Made by a program: the position numbers and the translations under genes | The notes under the pieces: generated by a model | The model's input: the letters and a program-made list of their open reading frames with translations, nothing else | The model's database searches: none | What the model was told of the DNA's origin: nothing | Shown here: positions 2,800 through 24,783 of the stretch, piece after piece | Numbering within the stretch: position 1 is the first letter of the stretch | How the letters are laid out: each line of letters begins with the position of its first letter | IMG/VR virus record: IMGVR_UViG_3300030107_003338 | Location: 1-26,562 of that record | Source: a virus | Direction: 5' to 3' (one strand) | DNA length: 26,562 nucleotides

Positions 2800-4263
2800 A
2801 TGGGTAAATTGATTGGTGAAGTCATGGAGGAGTTACAGGCAACTCAGGTTGAATGTAGCGAATCCAACGACTTTGAAAGATTGCAAACCGTTATAGATGG
2901 ATATAAACAGCTTCTGCTGGAAGCCCCACACGATCCAATAATCATGTTCCAACTCGGAACAGCACATCTTCAGAAACAGGAATACGGGATAGCCATAGTT
3001 ATTCTGCAACGTGTTCTGGATTACATTCCAGACAATTCGCATATCTGGTCCAATTTAGGCTGTTGTTATCGGTCAATTCATATGTTGGAACAAGCAAGGG
3101 ATTGTTTTATGAAAGCGTTAATGTTGGAAGAAAAAGCAGAAACTTACAGTAATCTAGCATCGTCTTATGTCAATGAAGATGCAGCAGAGGAAGGGTGGAA
3201 ATATGCGGTTAAAGCAATGGAGCTAGATCCAGACGCAGCTAAATCAAAATGGAACGCAGCGTTATTGCAATTAGAAATGCGAAACTGGAAAGAAGGTTTT
3301 GCGATGTATGACGCTGGGTTTTTCTGTGGTGAGCGAGGGCTACGCAGTTATTCTAACGACACGCCAGATTCTACAGCGTGGTTTGATGGTGATTTGCAAT
3401 CGGGTAAGACATTGGTTTTGTGGGATGAACAGGGATTAGGGGACCGATTGTTAGCGGCAGGATTGTTACGCAATTTAGAAAAGTCTAATTTAAAAATAAT
3501 ACTAGAATGTCACCCAAGACTAGAATCTATTTATAAACGCTCTTTTCCGTGGATAGACGAAATATACCCTACCGCAAAAAAGGATTTTATTGAATGGCCT
3601 AAAGACCATCCTGTAGATCAGAAAGCAGCGGTATTTAGTTTAGCTAAACACTTCTGGCAGAAAGAAAGTGATTTTTATCCAATGCCATATTTAATACCTA
3701 ACCCAGAACTACAAGCTAAATACAGAGCGGAATTTGAAGCGTTAGGACCGCCGCCTTATTACGGTTTAAGTTGGAAAGGTGGTGCATTAAAAACAAATAC
3801 CAGTTATCGCTCATTGAAATTAGGATGGTTTAAAGATGTTATTAAACAAGCAGGTGGGACTTGGATTTCTATGCAATACCATGAAGATGCTAAAGAAAAA
3901 GTGGAGCGATTTAGAGAAGAAACAGGTTTACCGATATATCATTGTGATGGCGCACAAGAAATGGATTATGACCACACGTTGGCTGCGTTGGCGGCTGTAG
4001 ATAAAACTTTTACTTGTTGTAATACGGTAGTACATACCTGTGGTGCGGCGGGATTACCTTGTACAGTATTTGTACCAAGGAAACGAGCATGGCGATATCC
4101 CGCTGGTCCTTATTTCCCTTGGTATTCTGACAATGTAATGATGCTACATCAAACAGAACATCAAAACTGGCAAGACGTTATTAAAGTGGTAGGGAGGTCG
4201 TTAGAAAATGCAAACAGTGATAGTCGGACACGGGCCATCGATACTAAGGCAAAAATTAGGTAA
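2800..4263 (+). CDS. TPR-repeat glycosyltransferase-like protein
   Basis: 487 aa. Residues about 25-165 are tetratricopeptide-type repeats (for example HIWSNLGCCYRSIHMLEQA followed by FMKALMLEE), usually a protein-binding scaffold. From about residue 200 a GT-B-like domain follows, with LVLWDEQGLGDRLLAAGL resembling the GxxGLGD(x)L element of heptosyltransferase (GT9)/TPR-GT proteins, then GLSWKGG and a late HTCGAAGLPCTVFVP segment placed like the nucleotide-sugar binding loop of that fold. It likely transfers a sugar, perhaps to a protein held by the TPR part; substrate unknown. It is the first of four overlapping sugar-modification genes and overlaps the next by 56 nt. The start follows GAGGACAGGG. 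It shows no sign of decay. Confidence 0.75.
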   Translation: MGKLIGEVMEELQATQVECSESNDFERLQTVIDGYKQLLLEAPHDPIIMFQLGTAHLQKQEYGIAIVILQRVLDYIPDNSHIWSNLGCCYRSIHMLEQARDCFMKALMLEEKAETYSNLASSYVNEDAAEEGWKYAVKAMELDPDAAKSKWNAALLQLEMRNWKEGFAMYDAGFFCGERGLRSYSNDTPDSTAWFDGDLQSGKTLVLWDEQGLGDRLLAAGLLRNLEKSNLKIILECHPRLESIYKRSFPWIDEIYPTAKKDFIEWPKDHPVDQKAAVFSLAKHFWQKESDFYPMPYLIPNPELQAKYRAEFEALGPPPYYGLSWKGGALKTNTSYRSLKLGWFKDVIKQAGGTWISMQYHEDAKEKVERFREETGLPIYHCDGAQEMDYDHTLAALAAVDKTFTCCNTVVHTCGAAGLPCTVFVPRKRAWRYPAGPYFPWYSDNVMMLHQTEHQNWQDVIKVVGRSLENANSDSRTRAIDTKAKIR

Positions 4264-4852
4264 AGAGATAGACTTGTTTGACTGCGTAATCCGCATGAAA
4301 CGAACATCGGATTTAACTAAAAACAGGCCAGATTTGTACGGAAAAAAAACAGACGTAGTAGTTAGTTCTTTAACTTTAGGCCGAGTAATTATGGACGCTT
4401 GGAAAGGCGTAAAGGATTTTTGGCTGTTTGATGATACAAGAACCGAAAATGATGATGACAAAGTAATGCCTAAAGGAGCGCACTTAGACAGGGATACTTG
4501 TCGTGTTTGGCGTACTCAATATCGGCGGTTAAGAAAAACGTACACTAAAGCTAATTCCCAAAAACCTAAAGATGGATTAAGTGACGATAAAGGTCATTTG
4601 CATCCGTCAGCAGGTTCCCACGCCATTATGTATACCATGCACAAATTAAATCCAGACCGCATTACGTTATATGGGTTTGATAGTTTATTGTCTGGAAAAC
4701 ATGATTGGTCTATTACCAGAGGAAATGAATATAAAGAATATCCAGATCATAATTGGGTAGCAGAACAAGAGTTATTAAAATTATTGTGTGATGTGTATAG
4801 CTATAAACTGGATGTGAAAGAGACAGGGAGTGCAGTTTTAAATGCAGCTTAA
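4208..4852 (+). CDS. Sialyltransferase-like glycosyltransferase (GT29-type)
   Basis: 214 aa. Three elements match GT29 sialylmotifs in order. An L-motif-like segment VIVGHGPSIL...FDCVIRMK lies at residues 4-31. An S-motif-like segment HPSAGSHAIMYTM...RITLYGFDSL lies at about 132-160. A VS-type His-x4-Glu (H181, E186 in HNWVAEQE) follows. GT29 enzymes move sialic acid from CMP-sialic acid to acceptor glycans; distant bacterial and viral members may use other sugars. The protein has no signal peptide or membrane anchor, so it would act in the cytoplasm, presumably on virion components or a lipid-linked glycan. GGGAGG at 4192-4197 sets the start inside the preceding gene. Family call is fairly firm, donor and acceptor are not. 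Confidence 0.72.
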   Translation: MQTVIVGHGPSILRQKLGKEIDLFDCVIRMKRTSDLTKNRPDLYGKKTDVVVSSLTLGRVIMDAWKGVKDFWLFDDTRTENDDDKVMPKGAHLDRDTCRVWRTQYRRLRKTYTKANSQKPKDGLSDDKGHLHPSAGSHAIMYTMHKLNPDRITLYGFDSLLSGKHDWSITRGNEYKEYPDHNWVAEQELLKLLCDVYSYKLDVKETGSAVLNAA

Positions 4853-6089
4853 ATTTGTAACTAGTATGAACCGCCGTATGTATGACGAGTACGGTGAAAT
4901 AATGATGGACACATTTTCTCAATACTGGCCTAGTGGCGAGTTGCACGTTTATACAGAAGATGAGTTTTTTCCTTACAACAACGCTAGAATTGTATATCAC
5001 GACTTAATGCAAGTAGAAGGCATGGCTGACTTTTTAGAAGGCATTAAACACTTCCCCGTATTTTATGGATTAATTGGTGAAGTTAAAAACTATAAATATA
5101 ATATTAATGCGTTTTGTAGAAAGGTATATGCACAGATAGATGCAGCCAAAGATTATAAAGGTTATTTGTTCTGGGTTGATGCAGATATAAAAACTTTTAA
5201 ATCAATACCAGCAGTTAATCTAGAAGAATATATGCGTGGTTGTTTTATGGCAGTCATGAAACGTAAAACATGGCATTTGTGCAGTTCTTTTGTTGGCTGG
5301 GATTGTTCTCACGCTTTTAGCGCAAGTTGGTGGGAGCATTACAAAAATATGTATAAAACAGGTTCGGTGTTTATGCTGCCACAATGGGACGATGCGTTTG
5401 TGTTAGAGAAAACAATAGAGGATTTAGTAGGCGTAAAAAACATAGCAGAACACGTTAATGGCGAAGGTCCGTACAATGTGTTTGATGGCGTATTTGAAGG
5501 TTATGCAACACATGATAAAGGACCAACTAAACACGCTGTCAGGTATATACATTTGTTAGAGATTGTTAAACAAATGAAGCCAAAGCGGATACTAGAAATA
5601 GGGACATGGAATGGCGCAAGGGCTAGGCAAATGTTAGAACTTAGTCCTAATTCAGAATATTTTGGTTTTGATTTATTTGAAGAAGCTACAGACGAAACAG
5701 ATAAAGAAGAAAAAAATGTTAAGAAACATTATTCACTAGATGATGTTACAGAGCGTTTAAACGGTCTAAATGCGAGACTATATAAGGGGAATAGTCGCAA
5801 TACATTAAAAGAATATTTAAATGAATATGGTGAAAACTCAGCAGATTGCGTATTTATTGACGGTGGACATAGTGTAGAAACAATACAAAGTGATTACGAT
5901 TATGCGAAAAAAATAGTGCAAAAAAACGGCATTATTATATTCGATGATTTTTATACTGAAATGCCAGATGAAGAATTAAAGTTGTATGGGGCGCAAGAAA
6001 TATTAAAAAATGAAGAATATTATTTAATGCCCACAAGGGATCATGTTAAAGGTGGGGGTAGAGTACAAATGGCGGTAGTCCAATGTTAA
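4842..6089 (+). CDS. Glycosyltransferase-methyltransferase fusion
   Basis: 415 aa with two domains. Residues 1-220 resemble a GT-A-like glycosyltransferase, with a DxD-type metal site in FWVDADIKTF (D113, D115) and a later QWDDAFVLE. From about 225 a class I SAM-dependent methyltransferase of the Methyltransf_24 type follows, with motif I RILEIGTWNGARA (249-261) and the D-x-x-F-I-D-G-G-H motif with an acidic pair after it (DCVFIDGGHSVE at about 335-346, IIIFDDF at 364-370). A single protein could add and then O-methylate a sugar. It overlaps the GT29-like gene by 11 nt and the next by 7 nt, so the cassette is translationally coupled. The GT half is less certain than the methyltransferase half. 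Confidence 0.78.
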   Translation: MQLKFVTSMNRRMYDEYGEIMMDTFSQYWPSGELHVYTEDEFFPYNNARIVYHDLMQVEGMADFLEGIKHFPVFYGLIGEVKNYKYNINAFCRKVYAQIDAAKDYKGYLFWVDADIKTFKSIPAVNLEEYMRGCFMAVMKRKTWHLCSSFVGWDCSHAFSASWWEHYKNMYKTGSVFMLPQWDDAFVLEKTIEDLVGVKNIAEHVNGEGPYNVFDGVFEGYATHDKGPTKHAVRYIHLLEIVKQMKPKRILEIGTWNGARARQMLELSPNSEYFGFDLFEEATDETDKEEKNVKKHYSLDDVTERLNGLNARLYKGNSRNTLKEYLNEYGENSADCVFIDGGHSVETIQSDYDYAKKIVQKNGIIIFDDFYTEMPDEELKLYGAQEILKNEEYYLMPTRDHVKGGGRVQMAVVQC

Positions 6090-6790
6090 AACAAATAAAC
6101 GTATATATAGGTTATGACCCGTCAGAAGGAATAGCTGCACAGGTATTAGCTCACTCTATAACTTCACGGTCATCGATACCTGTCAACATTACGTTTTTAA
6201 TGCTAAACCAGTTACGGCAAATACATAAACGGGAGAGGCATGAATTACAAAGTACGGATTTTTCGTTTACCCGTTTTTTAGTTCCTTATCTTTCTCAGTA
6301 TCGCGGTTATAATGTGTTTATGGACTGCGATATGTTAATGCTTGATGATATAGCTAATCTAGATAATCAGTACGGCGGCACAGTTTATCCAGTAAGAGTA
6401 GTGAAACATAACTATAAACCGACTAATACCACTAAAATGCTAGGTCAAAAACAAACGCAATATCCGTGTAAAAATTGGTCTAGTTTTATGGTTTTTTGGT
6501 CAGCACACGCCGATTGCGGTACACTAACACCAGAAATAGTAGATAATGAAAGCGGTTTGTATTTGCACCAGTTTAAATGGACCGATAGAGTAGGAGAATT
6601 GGACGCAAGGTGGAATCATTTGGTAGGATATGATAAAGAAAAACCAATAGAAAATATTAGCGTATTACACTGGACAGAAGGTGGTCCGTGGTGGGGAAAA
6701 TACAAAAACACAGAATACGCAGATGTTTGGTTTGAAGAAAAAGCTAAGATGGAACAGGCGTATGAACGCCCAAAGGTCGTAGCAAAATGA
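6083..6790 (+). CDS. GT8-like glycosyltransferase
   Basis: 235 aa. It starts with a nucleotide-sugar-type strand (INVYIGYDPSE), followed by FSFTRFLVPYL (60-70) and the metal-binding DxD motif in YNVFMDCDMLMLDD (D81, D83). A late WNHLVGY and VLHWTEGGPWW correspond to the acceptor/diphosphate loop of GT8-like and related GT-A enzymes. It is expected to be a retaining glycosyltransferase using a nucleotide sugar and Mn2+. No membrane segment. It ends the sugar cassette and overlaps the next small gene by 4 nt (ATGA). The acceptor is unknown; a virion protein, a host surface glycan or modified DNA are all possible. Confidence 0.8.
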   Translation: MLKQINVYIGYDPSEGIAAQVLAHSITSRSSIPVNITFLMLNQLRQIHKRERHELQSTDFSFTRFLVPYLSQYRGYNVFMDCDMLMLDDIANLDNQYGGTVYPVRVVKHNYKPTNTTKMLGQKQTQYPCKNWSSFMVFWSAHADCGTLTPEIVDNESGLYLHQFKWTDRVGELDARWNHLVGYDKEKPIENISVLHWTEGGPWWGKYKNTEYADVWFEEKAKMEQAYERPKVVAK

Positions 6791-18245: not shown

Positions 18246-18818
18246 CTAGTGAACGATTAGTGAGTTTGAGTCGCAGACAGGGCAAATACGACATTGGTCT
18301 GCCACTGTGCGACTAGCTCTAAAAGTTATCCCACAGTTATTACACTCGACTTTAATCAACCTCGTTGACTGCTTTTTCCGTTGGCTGTAATCGATAGAGG
18401 CATGACCGTAATCTCCTAGCTCTGAAATAACAGGGTTAATAAAGTTATCTACTAACTCTTGTGACTCAGTAGTAGCTGTCATTTTTCCTTCCAACCCAAC
18501 AGATAAAGCGCATTTTTTAAAAGGTTTTCGATGTCCATGCTCGCAGCCAACAGCGGCGTGAACCATTTCATGTATAAGAACCCCTATAGCTTGCTTTGGA
18601 TCATCAACTACCATAGAAACGATTATCTCAGTAGTTCCGTCTTTACTTAGTTCGGGCGGCCAACATTCTCCAATGCGCCCTCTCTTTAACGAAAAAGCTC
18701 CCTTGTGTGGAAAGCCACACGTTACTCTATACTTCGGGAGCGTGTAGCCGTTAGGCTTAAACAATTCTACTTCTGCTTTTTGTGCTACCGCTAATAAATA
18801 TTCTTCTCTTGTTTTCAT
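18246..18818 (-). CDS. SprT-like zinc metalloprotease
   Basis: 190 aa using the ATG at 18816-18818, which has AAGGAG 7 bases upstream; an in-frame ATG 23 codons earlier has none and overlaps the promoter. A zinc protease motif lies in GVLIHEMVHAAVGCEHGH (H83, E84, H87, probable third ligand around H94-H97), as in SprT/Spartan enzymes. A C-terminal zinc ribbon follows (C159, C162, C179, C182 in CNNC and CPVC). Cellular Spartan proteases cut DNA-protein crosslinks; phage copies may clear host proteins from DNA. It has its own promoter and sits beside the recombination genes. The family is fairly firm, the role is inferred. Confidence 0.82.
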   Translation of the reverse strand: MKTREEYLLAVAQKAEVELFKPNGYTLPKYRVTCGFPHKGAFSLKRGRIGECWPPELSKDGTTEIIVSMVVDDPKQAIGVLIHEMVHAAVGCEHGHRKPFKKCALSVGLEGKMTATTESQELVDNFINPVISELGDYGHASIDYSQRKKQSTRLIKVECNNCGITFRASRTVADQCRICPVCDSNSLIVH

Positions 18819-18855
18819 CTCAATCTCCTTGTGTTTAAACGTCTTCGATATGGTT

Positions 18856-18920: not shown

Positions 18921-19154
18921 CTACTTACGAGCAGTTTTAGTTTTATTTTTGGGAGCAGCTACTAAAGTTTTAGCAAAATCACGCAATTTTTGAACATTGG
19001 ATTTGTGAACCCATAAAGTTATCTCAGCCTGATTCGCTTTTTTCTGACGCTCTCGATACGCTTGTTGGTTCATTCGTTTGCGTTCAAGATACTCAGGTGT
19101 CTTAGGATACAGTTTCCCATTGTTTTCGTAGTAACCAGTTTTAGAAAGGGACAT
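18921..19154 (-). CDS. Small basic protein, possible ribbon-helix-helix DNA-binding protein
   Basis: 77 aa from the ATG at 19152-19154 (SLSKTGYYENNGK...). AAAGGAG lies 6 bases upstream; the earlier ATG two codons before abuts the binding site and is unlikely. A basic stretch (ERKRMNQQAYRERQKKANQ) is followed by AEITLWVHKSNVQKLRDFAKTL, which fits a beta strand then two helices as in ribbon-helix-helix regulators. The tail is Lys-rich. It overlaps the mini-SSB gene by 14 nt and is last in the leftward recombination operon. It is a candidate for the protein that binds the shared 16-bp element, but this is inference. Confidence 0.6.
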   Translation of the reverse strand: MSLSKTGYYENNGKLYPKTPEYLERKRMNQQAYRERQKKANQAEITLWVHKSNVQKLRDFAKTLVAAPKNKTKTARK

Positions 19155-19383
19155 CGCCATCTCCTTTAAAAGATTTTTTTGGTTCAACGTCATAAGCGTT
19201 TACCATAACCCTGCTGTCTCCTTCACGCCTATCGAAAGCCGCAAGGTTAATGTGAGACTCTAAAGTAATGTACTCCCCGTACTGACCATCGTGTATGTGA
19301 CCTATCGTCACATAACTATTTTTTTCCTCACCGTTTTTATTTGTGTAAGTTCCATTCTTTACGACTAACCGTTTCTTAATCAT
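19141..19383 (-). CDS. Short single-stranded DNA-binding protein-like (OB fold)
   Basis: 80 aa from the ATG at 19381-19383, preceded by AAAGGAG; an ATG 23 codons earlier has no such signal. Strands LVVKNGTYTNKNGEEKNSYV, TIGHIHDGQYGEYITLE and a late SRVMVNAYDV fit a short OB fold. The last residues GDGDVPF match the acidic SSB tail (D-D-x-P-F) that recruits repair proteins. The operon partners are an exonuclease and an ERF annealing protein, so it probably coats single strands for annealing. It overlaps the exonuclease by 8 nt. At 80 aa it is far shorter than bacterial SSB (about 170 aa). Confidence 0.65.
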   Translation of the reverse strand: MIKKRLVVKNGTYTNKNGEEKNSYVTIGHIHDGQYGEYITLESHINLAAFDRREGDSRVMVNAYDVEPKKSFKGDGDVPF

Positions 19384-20305
19384 TGTTTTCTCCTTTACCG
19401 CTAATTCTAGTCTGAGTAGTTTTGTCAGCGCGATACTGTTCGAGTTCGTCATCAGTCAAACTAGACAGGTGTTCGCTCACAATTTTTTTGTAGTCAATAT
19501 TTCCCTTCCGATGAGAGACAGTAAATTTAAAACCGCCGCCCATCGTGTTTCTGTTATCAACTAAAATCTCTATTTGTTTTTTAATTTTTGTCTTGTTTGC
19601 TTTGGCTTCTGTTTCAGAAGTGTGGGCTTCCAAATACTGGCGAGACAAATCCAACCATTCCTCCGTTTTACTTTTATCAACTTTTACATAATCAAAATCT
19701 TGTGGTGCAGGTGGAGTGTGACTGATGTAGTTGACCCAGAACTTATCCCAAGCATCGACTATATTTTCAATCCACACTTCATCAAGCTCAACAGGCATAT
19801 AAGTGATGCTGTCTGCCTTCTTACAGTAGACCGCAAAAACTAAGCTGACATCATGTGCGCCGTTCCAGCCATCTAAAGAAGCAGCAAAGTGATCGTCCCC
19901 TACCATAAAGGCAGGGGGGAAATCATCTGACAATTTTTTTTCTAATAACTCTCTTGCACGAGGTTCATACTTTAAACCGTCAGTCATATATTTATTGACT
20001 GGAATTATTTTATCTCCAGTCTTTACTTGAAATAACTGTAGCGGTGTTTTTGGTTCCCAAGGACTCATGCCTAACAACGCAGCAGTCTCACTCGCCATCT
20101 TAAGCGTTCGGCGTACCTGTAGCCATTGTGAACTGCCTTGCTCCAAGTCAGGTACATCTCCCCACCCTTTTGCAAAGCAATCCATTACGAACAGCTGATG
20201 CTGAACCTGTGCCATGTAGTGGTCAGGCAATGGTTGTTTGTTTTCAACAATATCCCACAAAGGACTGCTAATACCTTGAGCAGGTGTTTTTATTTCAATT
20301 ATCAT
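19376..20305 (-). CDS. YqaJ/lambda-type exonuclease with permuted catalytic block
   Basis: 309 aa. The residue blocks of a YqaJ/lambda-exonuclease are all present but in an unusual order. The ExK motif (IIEIKTP; E4, K6) and the following HYMAQVQHQLFVM (Q33, Q35) are at the very N-terminus. Then comes what is normally the start of the family, EQGSSQWLQVRR...SETAALLGMSPW (R65, 55-83), then GLKYEP (E114) and FAASLDG (D145). After SLDG, where ExK should follow, the chain jumps to SLVFAVYCKK and the usual C-terminal helices. The enzyme should resect 5' ends to give substrates for the ERF protein. The start is fixed by GAAGGAG and an ATGA overlap with erf, so this is not a wrong start. Whether it is active is unknown. 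Confidence 0.85.
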   Translation of the reverse strand: MIIEIKTPAQGISSPLWDIVENKQPLPDHYMAQVQHQLFVMDCFAKGWGDVPDLEQGSSQWLQVRRTLKMASETAALLGMSPWEPKTPLQLFQVKTGDKIIPVNKYMTDGLKYEPRARELLEKKLSDDFPPAFMVGDDHFAASLDGWNGAHDVSLVFAVYCKKADSITYMPVELDEVWIENIVDAWDKFWVNYISHTPPAPQDFDYVKVDKSKTEEWLDLSRQYLEAHTSETEAKANKTKIKKQIEILVDNRNTMGGGFKFTVSHRKGNIDYKKIVSEHLSSLTDDELEQYRADKTTQTRISGKGENND

Positions 20306-21021
20306 TCGTACTGCTCCTTCAACTCGTTAACCAAAACGGTCCATTGGTCAATTCGTTTCATAGCATTATTAGTTTCAGAAAACTTGGTACGCCACGCAGT
20401 TAATTCTTTAATAGTTTTTTGCAACTCGTCTTTACTGTCAACCATAGCCAACCTGTCATCAATTCCAGATGCCATCTTATCAGCTTGAGTTTGCAAATCG
20501 TTATTCTTATTTTTATTGTTAGAATTTTTAGTCGCAGGTTTATTAGGTTTAGAACCCGAAGCCAAATTTCCGTCATCATCTGCATCCTCCCCAAAAATAT
20601 TTAACAAAGCAATCTGGCAATACCTTTTTGAATAAGTGATTGCACTTCCATATGCGTGTGGAGTTTTTGCTGTTGGTGGAACCCAAAAATCAAATTCAAT
20701 TTTTGCTCCACTAGTATGAACCAACTTGGTTACCAACAAACATTGCCCATCGTTTTTAGTAATAGGAAGTTGAATAATTAGTAATCCGTTTTTTGTTAAC
20801 GCAGGAACAGTGGCTCTCTGGATGGCCCCAAGAGTCACATACCGAGATCCGAAGTGTGGGTTATTGCTGTCGAATACCACTTCATCAAATTCAGATCGTG
20901 CTTTCGCTAACGCCATATAGAGTTCAGTTAACTTACCTTCCTCTCGTATAGACCCTACACTGTAATTAGGAATGCAAGGTATTTGCTCTCCATCGAAACC
21001 AAAACTACTTTCATCTTTCAT
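20302..21021 (-). CDS. erf: ERF-family single-strand annealing protein
   Basis: 239 aa from the ATG at 21019-21021 (MKDESSF), with GAGGAG 7 bases upstream; the in-frame ATG five codons earlier lacks one. Residues about 35-150 match ERF: LYMALAKARSEFDEVVFDS, PHFGSRYVTLGAIQRATVPA, LTKNGLLIIQLP and the signature HAYGSAITYSKRYCQIALLN, followed by FGEDADDDGN. A Lys/Asn-rich linker and a helical C-terminus follow. ERF rings bind single strands and anneal complementary ends, serving recombination and genome circularisation. It is first in the leftward operon with exonuclease and mini-SSB. Confidence 0.92.
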   Translation of the reverse strand: MKDESSFGFDGEQIPCIPNYSVGSIREEGKLTELYMALAKARSEFDEVVFDSNNPHFGSRYVTLGAIQRATVPALTKNGLLIIQLPITKNDGQCLLVTKLVHTSGAKIEFDFWVPPTAKTPHAYGSAITYSKRYCQIALLNIFGEDADDDGNLASGSKPNKPATKNSNNKNKNNDLQTQADKMASGIDDRLAMVDSKDELQKTIKELTAWRTKFSETNNAMKRIDQWTVLVNELKEQYE

Positions 21022-23676: not shown

Positions 23677-23980
23677 GATGTACGGTTCAAAATGGACTCA
23701 CCACTATGGCCTTGAGCCTAACACTTCTTGGGCTGTGGCATTAGCTGATTTGACGAACAGGCACATTGCCAGAGGGATAAATGCTGTGATAGACAGCGGC
23801 GAGGAATGGCCCCCTAGTCTTCCTAAATTCAAGTCGTTGTGCAAAGCTGGGGAGGGTTGGCAGTCTCGACAGCCCTATGTTCCTTTGCTGACTAAAGAAA
23901 CTACGGAGGAAGAACGCCAAGAGTTTGTGCAAAAGCTAAAAGAGTTGCGTCAGGTTCTAAATGGGGATGACAGTGCGTAG
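23573..23980 (+). CDS. Lambda P-like replication protein, DnaB helicase loader
   Basis: 135 aa. MLVLWVSMAEMYGSKWTHHYG (26-46), followed by WAVALADLTNRHIARGINAV and EEWPPSLPKFKSLCKAG, corresponds to the conserved core of the lambda P family (W...M...YGxxW, WxxxLxxL...IxxGI, WPPSLxxFxxxC). Phage lambda P binds host DnaB helicase and delivers it to the origin. At 135 aa it is shorter than lambda P (233 aa). GAGGAG 7 bases upstream fixes the start inside the previous gene, a 104-nt overlap, so both are probably read from one mRNA in two frames. Confidence 0.78.
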   Translation: MEKINNILNFQQPKESKRKQVPEETMLVLWVSMAEMYGSKWTHHYGLEPNTSWAVALADLTNRHIARGINAVIDSGEEWPPSLPKFKSLCKAGEGWQSRQPYVPLLTKETTEEERQEFVQKLKELRQVLNGDDSA

Positions 23981-24368
23981 GTTTATTTTACGGAATACGG
24001 ATATTAGGGAGCGTTGCGTAGAGGCGATTAGAGAGGCTCCTGACGCTCCATTAATGGAAGTCGTCATCAAACAACACAAGTCATCTGGAAGTACAGAGCA
24101 GCGAAACTTCTATTGGGCGGTTGTAAGAGAGATAAGCAACCACTTGGGCTATCCACCTGCTGAACTCCATGAAGCGTTTAAACAGCTTTATTTAACCCCT
24201 ACAGTGATAGCTATGGGCAAGGGTGACGAGGTGCTGGATGTAACTGTGCCGCCTAGCACCACTCGCTTAAACAAAAAAGAATTTGTAGAATACCTTGATC
24301 GGGTATTGCAATTCGCAGCAGAACATGGGGTAAGTATCGATGGCAGGGATAAAAGTTACGGCGGCTGA
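23961..24368 (+). CDS. ninB: NinB-like recombination protein
   Basis: 135 aa. The strand FILRNTDIRERCVEAIREA, then MEVVIKQHKSSGSTEQRNFYW and AVVREISNHLGYPPAELHEA fit NinB (lambda Orf), which binds single-stranded DNA and SSB and acts as a mediator in recombination. The late SIDGRDKSYGG is at the overlap with the next gene. ATGs at 23961 and 23967 are both possible; the first has CAGG at fair spacing. It overlaps the P-like gene by 20 nt and NinG by 29 nt, as in lambdoid nin regions. Confidence 0.8.
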   Translation: MGMTVRRFILRNTDIRERCVEAIREAPDAPLMEVVIKQHKSSGSTEQRNFYWAVVREISNHLGYPPAELHEAFKQLYLTPTVIAMGKGDEVLDVTVPPSTTRLNKKEFVEYLDRVLQFAAEHGVSIDGRDKSYGG

Positions 24369-24783
24369 CCGTTGGTTTAGTTTAGCAATCAGGGAGGCTG
24401 CTAACTGGACCTGTGCTAGTAGCGGTATGGTAGACCCAGACGCACAGGCTAAAGGCTCTAGCAAACGCCTAGAGTGTTGTCATTTTTTTGGCCGTAGGAA
24501 CAAAAGCACACGTTGGCACGTTGATAATGTAGTGTGTCTTAGTCATTCAGAGCATAGACGCTTTACGGAAAACCCAGCAGATTTTACCTTGTGGTATCAG
24601 GATTACTTGGGTGCAGGGCGGTATGAAATGTTGTTAGCGAAAGCAAGTGATATCAGAATTAAATACAGCAAACAAGAACAGGCAAAAGACATACCTAGAC
24701 ATTATCGTGAAGAATACAGGCGGTTAAGGAAAGAACGCAAACAAGGTGCTACAGGAATATTGGAAGTCATTAGTTACGAATAA
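24340..24783 (+). CDS. ninG: NinG-like HNH recombination endonuclease
   Basis: 147 aa. RWFSLAIREAANWTCASSG (11-29), then LECCHFFGRRNKSTRWHVDN (44-63) and CLSHSEHRRFTENPADFTLW match the order of NinG/Rap proteins (WFSxxIRxRxxWTC..SG; LxCxHFxGRRxxSTRWxxxN; CxxCHxxL...P..F..W). These cut branched DNA. Several zinc ligands differ from the usual pattern: the first pair reads C-A-S-S and the second C-L-S-H, so the metal centre may be altered. HH-type catalytic residues around H49, H60 remain. It overlaps ninB by 29 nt. Confidence 0.75.
   Translation: MAGIKVTAADRWFSLAIREAANWTCASSGMVDPDAQAKGSSKRLECCHFFGRRNKSTRWHVDNVVCLSHSEHRRFTENPADFTLWYQDYLGAGRYEMLLAKASDIRIKYSKQEQAKDIPRHYREEYRRLRKERKQGATGILEVISYE

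Follow-up and report, generated by a model that had tools for sequence, protein, structure and literature searches.

A lambda-exonuclease/YqaJ-type viral nuclease with two exchanged internal segments, encoded next to an ERF-family annealing protein

The virus contig analysed here over its full 26,562 bases (the window), on which no host genome is present, encodes on its minus strand a 309-residue nuclease of the YqaJ/lambda-exonuclease type (19376..20305, assigned by profile matches) whose segments run in the order B-A-C instead of A-B-C. Here, the strand and helix that bear the ExK and QxQ motifs (module B) stand before the segment that ordinarily opens the protein (module A), and the C-terminal part (module C) keeps its normal position. 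The reshuffled order is real and under selection, and is not an assembly error. The gene very probably descends from an ordinary YqaJ/lambda-exonuclease of the TIGR03033/phrog_434 type in which β3-αB was moved to the front, the core having refolded into a working enzyme that partners an ERF-family protein.

Module B (residues 1-44; 20174..20305, minus strand), which corresponds to Pfam YqaJ 108-148 and phrog_434 159-196 and whose usual place is between A and C, consists of β3 with the ExK motif (E4, K6), a loop, and a helix with QVQHQL (Q33, Q35). It is followed on the same strand by a new B-to-A linker of about 10 residues (residues 45-54, the AKGWGDVPDL region; 20144..20173), which in the alignment is without counterpart in normal-order relatives. 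Module A (residues 55-146; 19868..20143, minus strand), matching YqaJ 1-96 and phrog_434 52-150, contains EQGSxxW...R, ASET, SPW, G..xEP (E114) and SLDG (D145). A new A-to-C junction (residues 147-156; 19838..19867, minus strand), seen in the alignment as a clean gap in the permuted rows, leads into module C (residues 157-309; 19379..19837, minus strand), in which phrog_434 201-362 and DSSP of the predicted model delimit β4/β5, a W..FW helix, a long helix and a C-terminal domain. Normal-order relatives align through A and C, and the permuted rows lack about 43 residues precisely at the usual site of B, between SLDGW.G..D and the β4 strand. One cut site therefore lies just before β3 and the other between αB and β4; since the permuted protein begins directly ahead of β3 and module B ends past the helix with QVQHQL, both are loop positions.

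The Pfam YqaJ profile (PF09588) matches the nuclease with 52.3 bits against a cut-off of 22, in two stretches: residues 2-42 align with profile positions 108-148 and residues 60-146 with positions 1-96, the remainder corresponding to the normal C-terminal part. The NCBIfam model TIGR03033 (lambda-exonuclease family) scores 79.1 against a cut-off of 68.05, and every permuted protein passes the curated threshold of this model in two stretches, compared with a single unbroken one in a normal-order relative. When the protein was cut into pieces, each scanned on its own against Pfam YqaJ and phrog_434, residues 1-56 matched YqaJ 108-148 (E 4.6e-6) and phrog_434 159-196 (3.5e-7), residues 31-150 matched YqaJ 1-96 (1.1e-6) and phrog_434 52-150 (1.2e-13), and residues 146-309 matched phrog_434 201-362 (2.2e-15), similarities that are far beyond chance. 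By sequence homology the nuclease is thus a member of the YqaJ/lambda-exonuclease family, yet it departs from the collinear motif order usual there, showing two out-of-order stretches instead. The initial annotation had proposed the order B-A-C with each element present once, and both points are borne out: the segment mapping with all three profiles gives this order, and no second copy of segment A or B was found elsewhere in the 26,562-base contig. Its further suggestion of a circularly permuted core stands as regards the reshuffled order and falls as regards a circular permutation of the whole chain, as A and B alone have traded places and C is unmoved.

The beginning of the protein is well defined. 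The start codon ATG (20305-20303) shares bases with the stop codon TGA of the ERF gene upstream (ATGA), and a ribosome binding site, AAGGAG, is found in the sequence on the minus strand before the ATG that opens module B (20314..20319). A check of the sequence confirmed this start, which had been assigned from the same two features, together with the open reading frame, the strand and every residue previously named. An overlooked normal N-terminus was ruled out, because the frame stays open for just 7 codons 5′ of the ATG (the stop-to-stop frame is 316 residues).

The B-A-C order is conserved in three lineages: besides the nuclease of the window, it is found on three other contigs in two distinct proteins that are 62% and 38% identical to it. 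The 62% relative (L101) comes from a third dataset and was reached by a wider scan; the 38% relative is L102/L103. A search with the major capsid protein retrieved contigs encoding a 96% identical one, two of which, G003 (37.2 kb) and G007 (19.6 kb), each yielded a full-length, 38% identical nuclease in which YqaJ 108-146 precedes YqaJ 1-96. All three permuted proteins start with M-[IL]-[IVL]-E-I-K, and the search of relatives for the same N-terminus that the initial annotation had called for returned [IL][IVL]EIK[TC]P in L101 and L102/L103, permuted identically. At each of the three permuted loci an ERF-like gene lies immediately upstream, its end overlapped by the nuclease start, a ribosome binding site precedes that start, and downstream lies a short gene whose product of 75-80 residues contains the motif YTNKNGEEK. 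The permuted set comprises 17 ORF records that reduce to three distinct sequences, and no more are known; ORFs with both segments among the fetched loci numbered 55 in normal order against these three. A scan of viral contigs for the start pattern ATG-I-x-EIK gave no permuted gene beyond the one on the L101 contig, which was known already. Matches in named phages and in plasmids included no recognised permuted member, the fetched phage loci having the normal order by the segment-order test, and the nucleases at the other loci found via the downstream small gene were, where present, more distant and in normal order.

The permuted proteins group together in trees built separately from A, B and C, and in the joint tree they form a clade with 96% ultrafast bootstrap; a single clade in all trees is most simply explained by one rearrangement event. 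Support for the nearest normal-order sister of this clade is just 46. A likely origin would be a tandem duplication giving A-B-A-B-C, from which the first A and the second B then dropped out, and no A-B-A-B-C intermediate was found among the loci fetched.

The fold was predicted with AlphaFold2 from three permuted and fifteen normal-order rows, giving a confident single domain (mean pLDDT 93, pTM 0.73). Residues 1-50, which are covered essentially by the permuted rows only, reach pLDDT 96-98. DSSP, which assigns a strand only where it is paired with another, places residues 2-6 in a strand and residues 28-45, with QVQHQL, in a helix. When the 38% relative was modelled with just the three permuted rows, the prediction failed (pLDDT 39); for A and C, the good model therefore depends on the normal-order rows. 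The best PDB matches by Foldseek, which compares in sequence order, are lambda Exo (3sm4, 1avq) and LHK-Exo (3sz4); the TM value against lambda Exo is 0.33-0.36 (by query length) at an rmsd of 5-10 Å in an order-dependent alignment, a low value of the kind that a permuted B, left unaligned by such a comparison, should produce, though it is not proof of a permuted fold. The best match in a viral structure library has TM 0.61/0.67 over 291 alignment columns. The structure prediction and comparison with lambda Exo proposed in the initial annotation thus gave a model that fits a permuted core: a single domain, a strand at residues 2-6, and lambda Exo as the top match. It is unlikely that the active site is instead completed between molecules, with module B docking into a neighbouring subunit of a lambda-Exo-like ring (a domain swap) instead of its own core; module B is now tethered by one linker only, and lambda Exo forms a ring-shaped trimer (PMC7496540), but the monomer model places the very residues concerned in a confident single-chain fold.

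Segment-wise alignment pairs lambda Exo W24, R28, S35, E85, D119, E129, K131 and Q157 with W61, R65, S72, E114, D145, E4, K6 and Q33 of the nuclease, so that counterparts are present for all tested residues of the active site and phosphate pocket. The lambda Exo active site includes Glu85, Asp119 and Lys131, its 5′-phosphate pocket is made by Trp24/Arg28 (PMC7496540), and Glu129 is a metal ligand (PMC3118119). Across the three distinct sequences of the permuted clade, E4, K6, Q33, Q35, W61, R65, S72, E114 and D145 are invariant. Comparison of the window with L101, at synonymous divergence close to saturation, gives pN/pS of 0.26 for module A, 0.30 for module B and 0.42 for module C; the permuted nuclease is under purifying selection in all modules, and the moved segment B thus shares the constraint on the other two. 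A permuted but inactive or repurposed protein, a DNA-binding or regulatory remnant that is no nuclease, might be argued from the faster divergence of the C part (31% identity to L103), but the invariance of the catalytic and 5′-phosphate residues, the selection on every module and the coupling to ERF in every permuted locus make it rather improbable. The complete conservation of the catalytic set points to an active enzyme, and the nuclease is most likely a working 5′-3′ exonuclease partner of ERF.

A local misassembly or binning artefact that reshuffled a normal gene, which the initial annotation had named as grounds for refutation, is of negligible probability and is rejected: the gene is known from a single metagenomic virus contig, and the close capsid-protein relatives L012 and L013 (both fragments) have no match to it, but L101 and L102/L103 share its N-terminus and permuted order, the three sequences come from contigs of different datasets and carry the same three junctions, every junction keeps the reading frame, a ribosome binding site and a start codon are present, and no exact direct repeat of at least 12 bases occurs within or beside the gene.

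The preferred reading is thus a segment swap within one chain. In it, β3-αB with ExK and QxQ would have been relocated before the module that bears the 5′-phosphate pocket, the metal-binding Glu and SLDG, and the chain most likely regains the usual PD-(D/E)XK core, its strands and helices now connected differently. The catalytic strand would become the new N-terminus, the linker of about ten residues would span from αB to helix A, β2 would run straight into β4, and the active site E114/D145/E4/K6 would be re-formed in the refolded core. The nuclease would then resect double-stranded DNA ends 5′ to 3′ and the translationally coupled ERF protein would anneal the 3′ strands, making up a functional two-component recombinase of an annealing protein and a segment-swapped exonuclease. 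We consider it probable that this is a natural segment swap in the lambda-exonuclease core with full activity kept, the catalytic ExK strand at the N-terminus and C unmoved.

The ERF-family single-strand annealing protein whose stop overlaps the nuclease start is encoded at 20302..21018 on the minus strand (PF04404, E 3.1e-22; phrog_2324). On the other side, the small gene which, by alignment, the three permuted loci share as the neighbour directly after the nuclease lies at 19141..19383 on the minus strand (weak match to phrog_37570); its 80-residue product (YTNKNGEEK...HINLA), also found beside the annealing proteins of phages whose nuclease has the normal order, is possibly a small recombination accessory protein. 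Further members of the recombination set are found at 23961-24783 on the opposite strand, where NinB-like and NinG/Rap-like proteins are encoded, and a SprT-like zinc metalloprotease-like protein, under the Pfam cut-off, lies downstream of the recombination genes (18246-18830). Within the structural region, positions 2800-6790 hold a sugar-transfer-like block made up of a TPR protein, a family 29 sialyltransferase-like protein and a Methyltransf_24-domain protein. The major capsid protein (1159-2250) is 96% identical to that of relatives at the protein level, the structural-module DNA being only about 72% identical, and phages with a 96% identical capsid protein have a recombination nuclease only 38% identical; this contrast may reflect either strong constraint on the capsid or module exchange.

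No report of a permuted YqaJ/lambda exonuclease or of permuted PD-(D/E)XK nucleases was found in the accessible part of the literature; a major survey of PD-(D/E)XK nucleases may mention permuted members. Natural permutations that split and rejoin a catalytic motif set and are kept over long divergence are rare. The PD-(D/E)XK core is used throughout DNA recombination and recombineering, and the present permutation, which breaks the β2-β3 meander and the β3-α-β4 crossover of the nuclease core, offers a direct test of how much strand connectivity can change with activity kept. It also illustrates that annotation by motif order can split or miss true family members.

Members of the YqaJ/lambda-exonuclease family are processive 5′-3′ double-stranded DNA exonucleases that form a trimeric ring. 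All three segments of the permuted nuclease are homologous to this family (PF09588, TIGR03033, phrog_434), and it shares with the family the catalytic Glu and Asp, ExK, QxQ, the phosphate-pocket W..R and a gene position adjoining that of an annealing protein; unlike the family, it has the order B-A-C with ExK at residues 4-6, so that the chain opens at the active site, and has gained two loop connections. Phage relatives with the normal order, such as L111, L107, L113, L117 and L104, are 33-39% identical to it by segment-wise alignment, most with the same C-terminal domain, and have the same long ExK-QxQ loop (GRDSDLW / GISSPLW), but their B lies between SLDG and β4, as in lambda Exo. The nearest analogue in kind is provided by the permuted classes of DNA methyltransferases (Bujnicki 2002 and Jeltsch 1999, cited in PMC1829167), in which the motif order of a DNA enzyme has likewise been reshuffled naturally with the fold kept. 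The methyltransferases differ in fold and chemistry; the nuclease exchanges an internal pair of segments and leaves its C-terminal part fixed.
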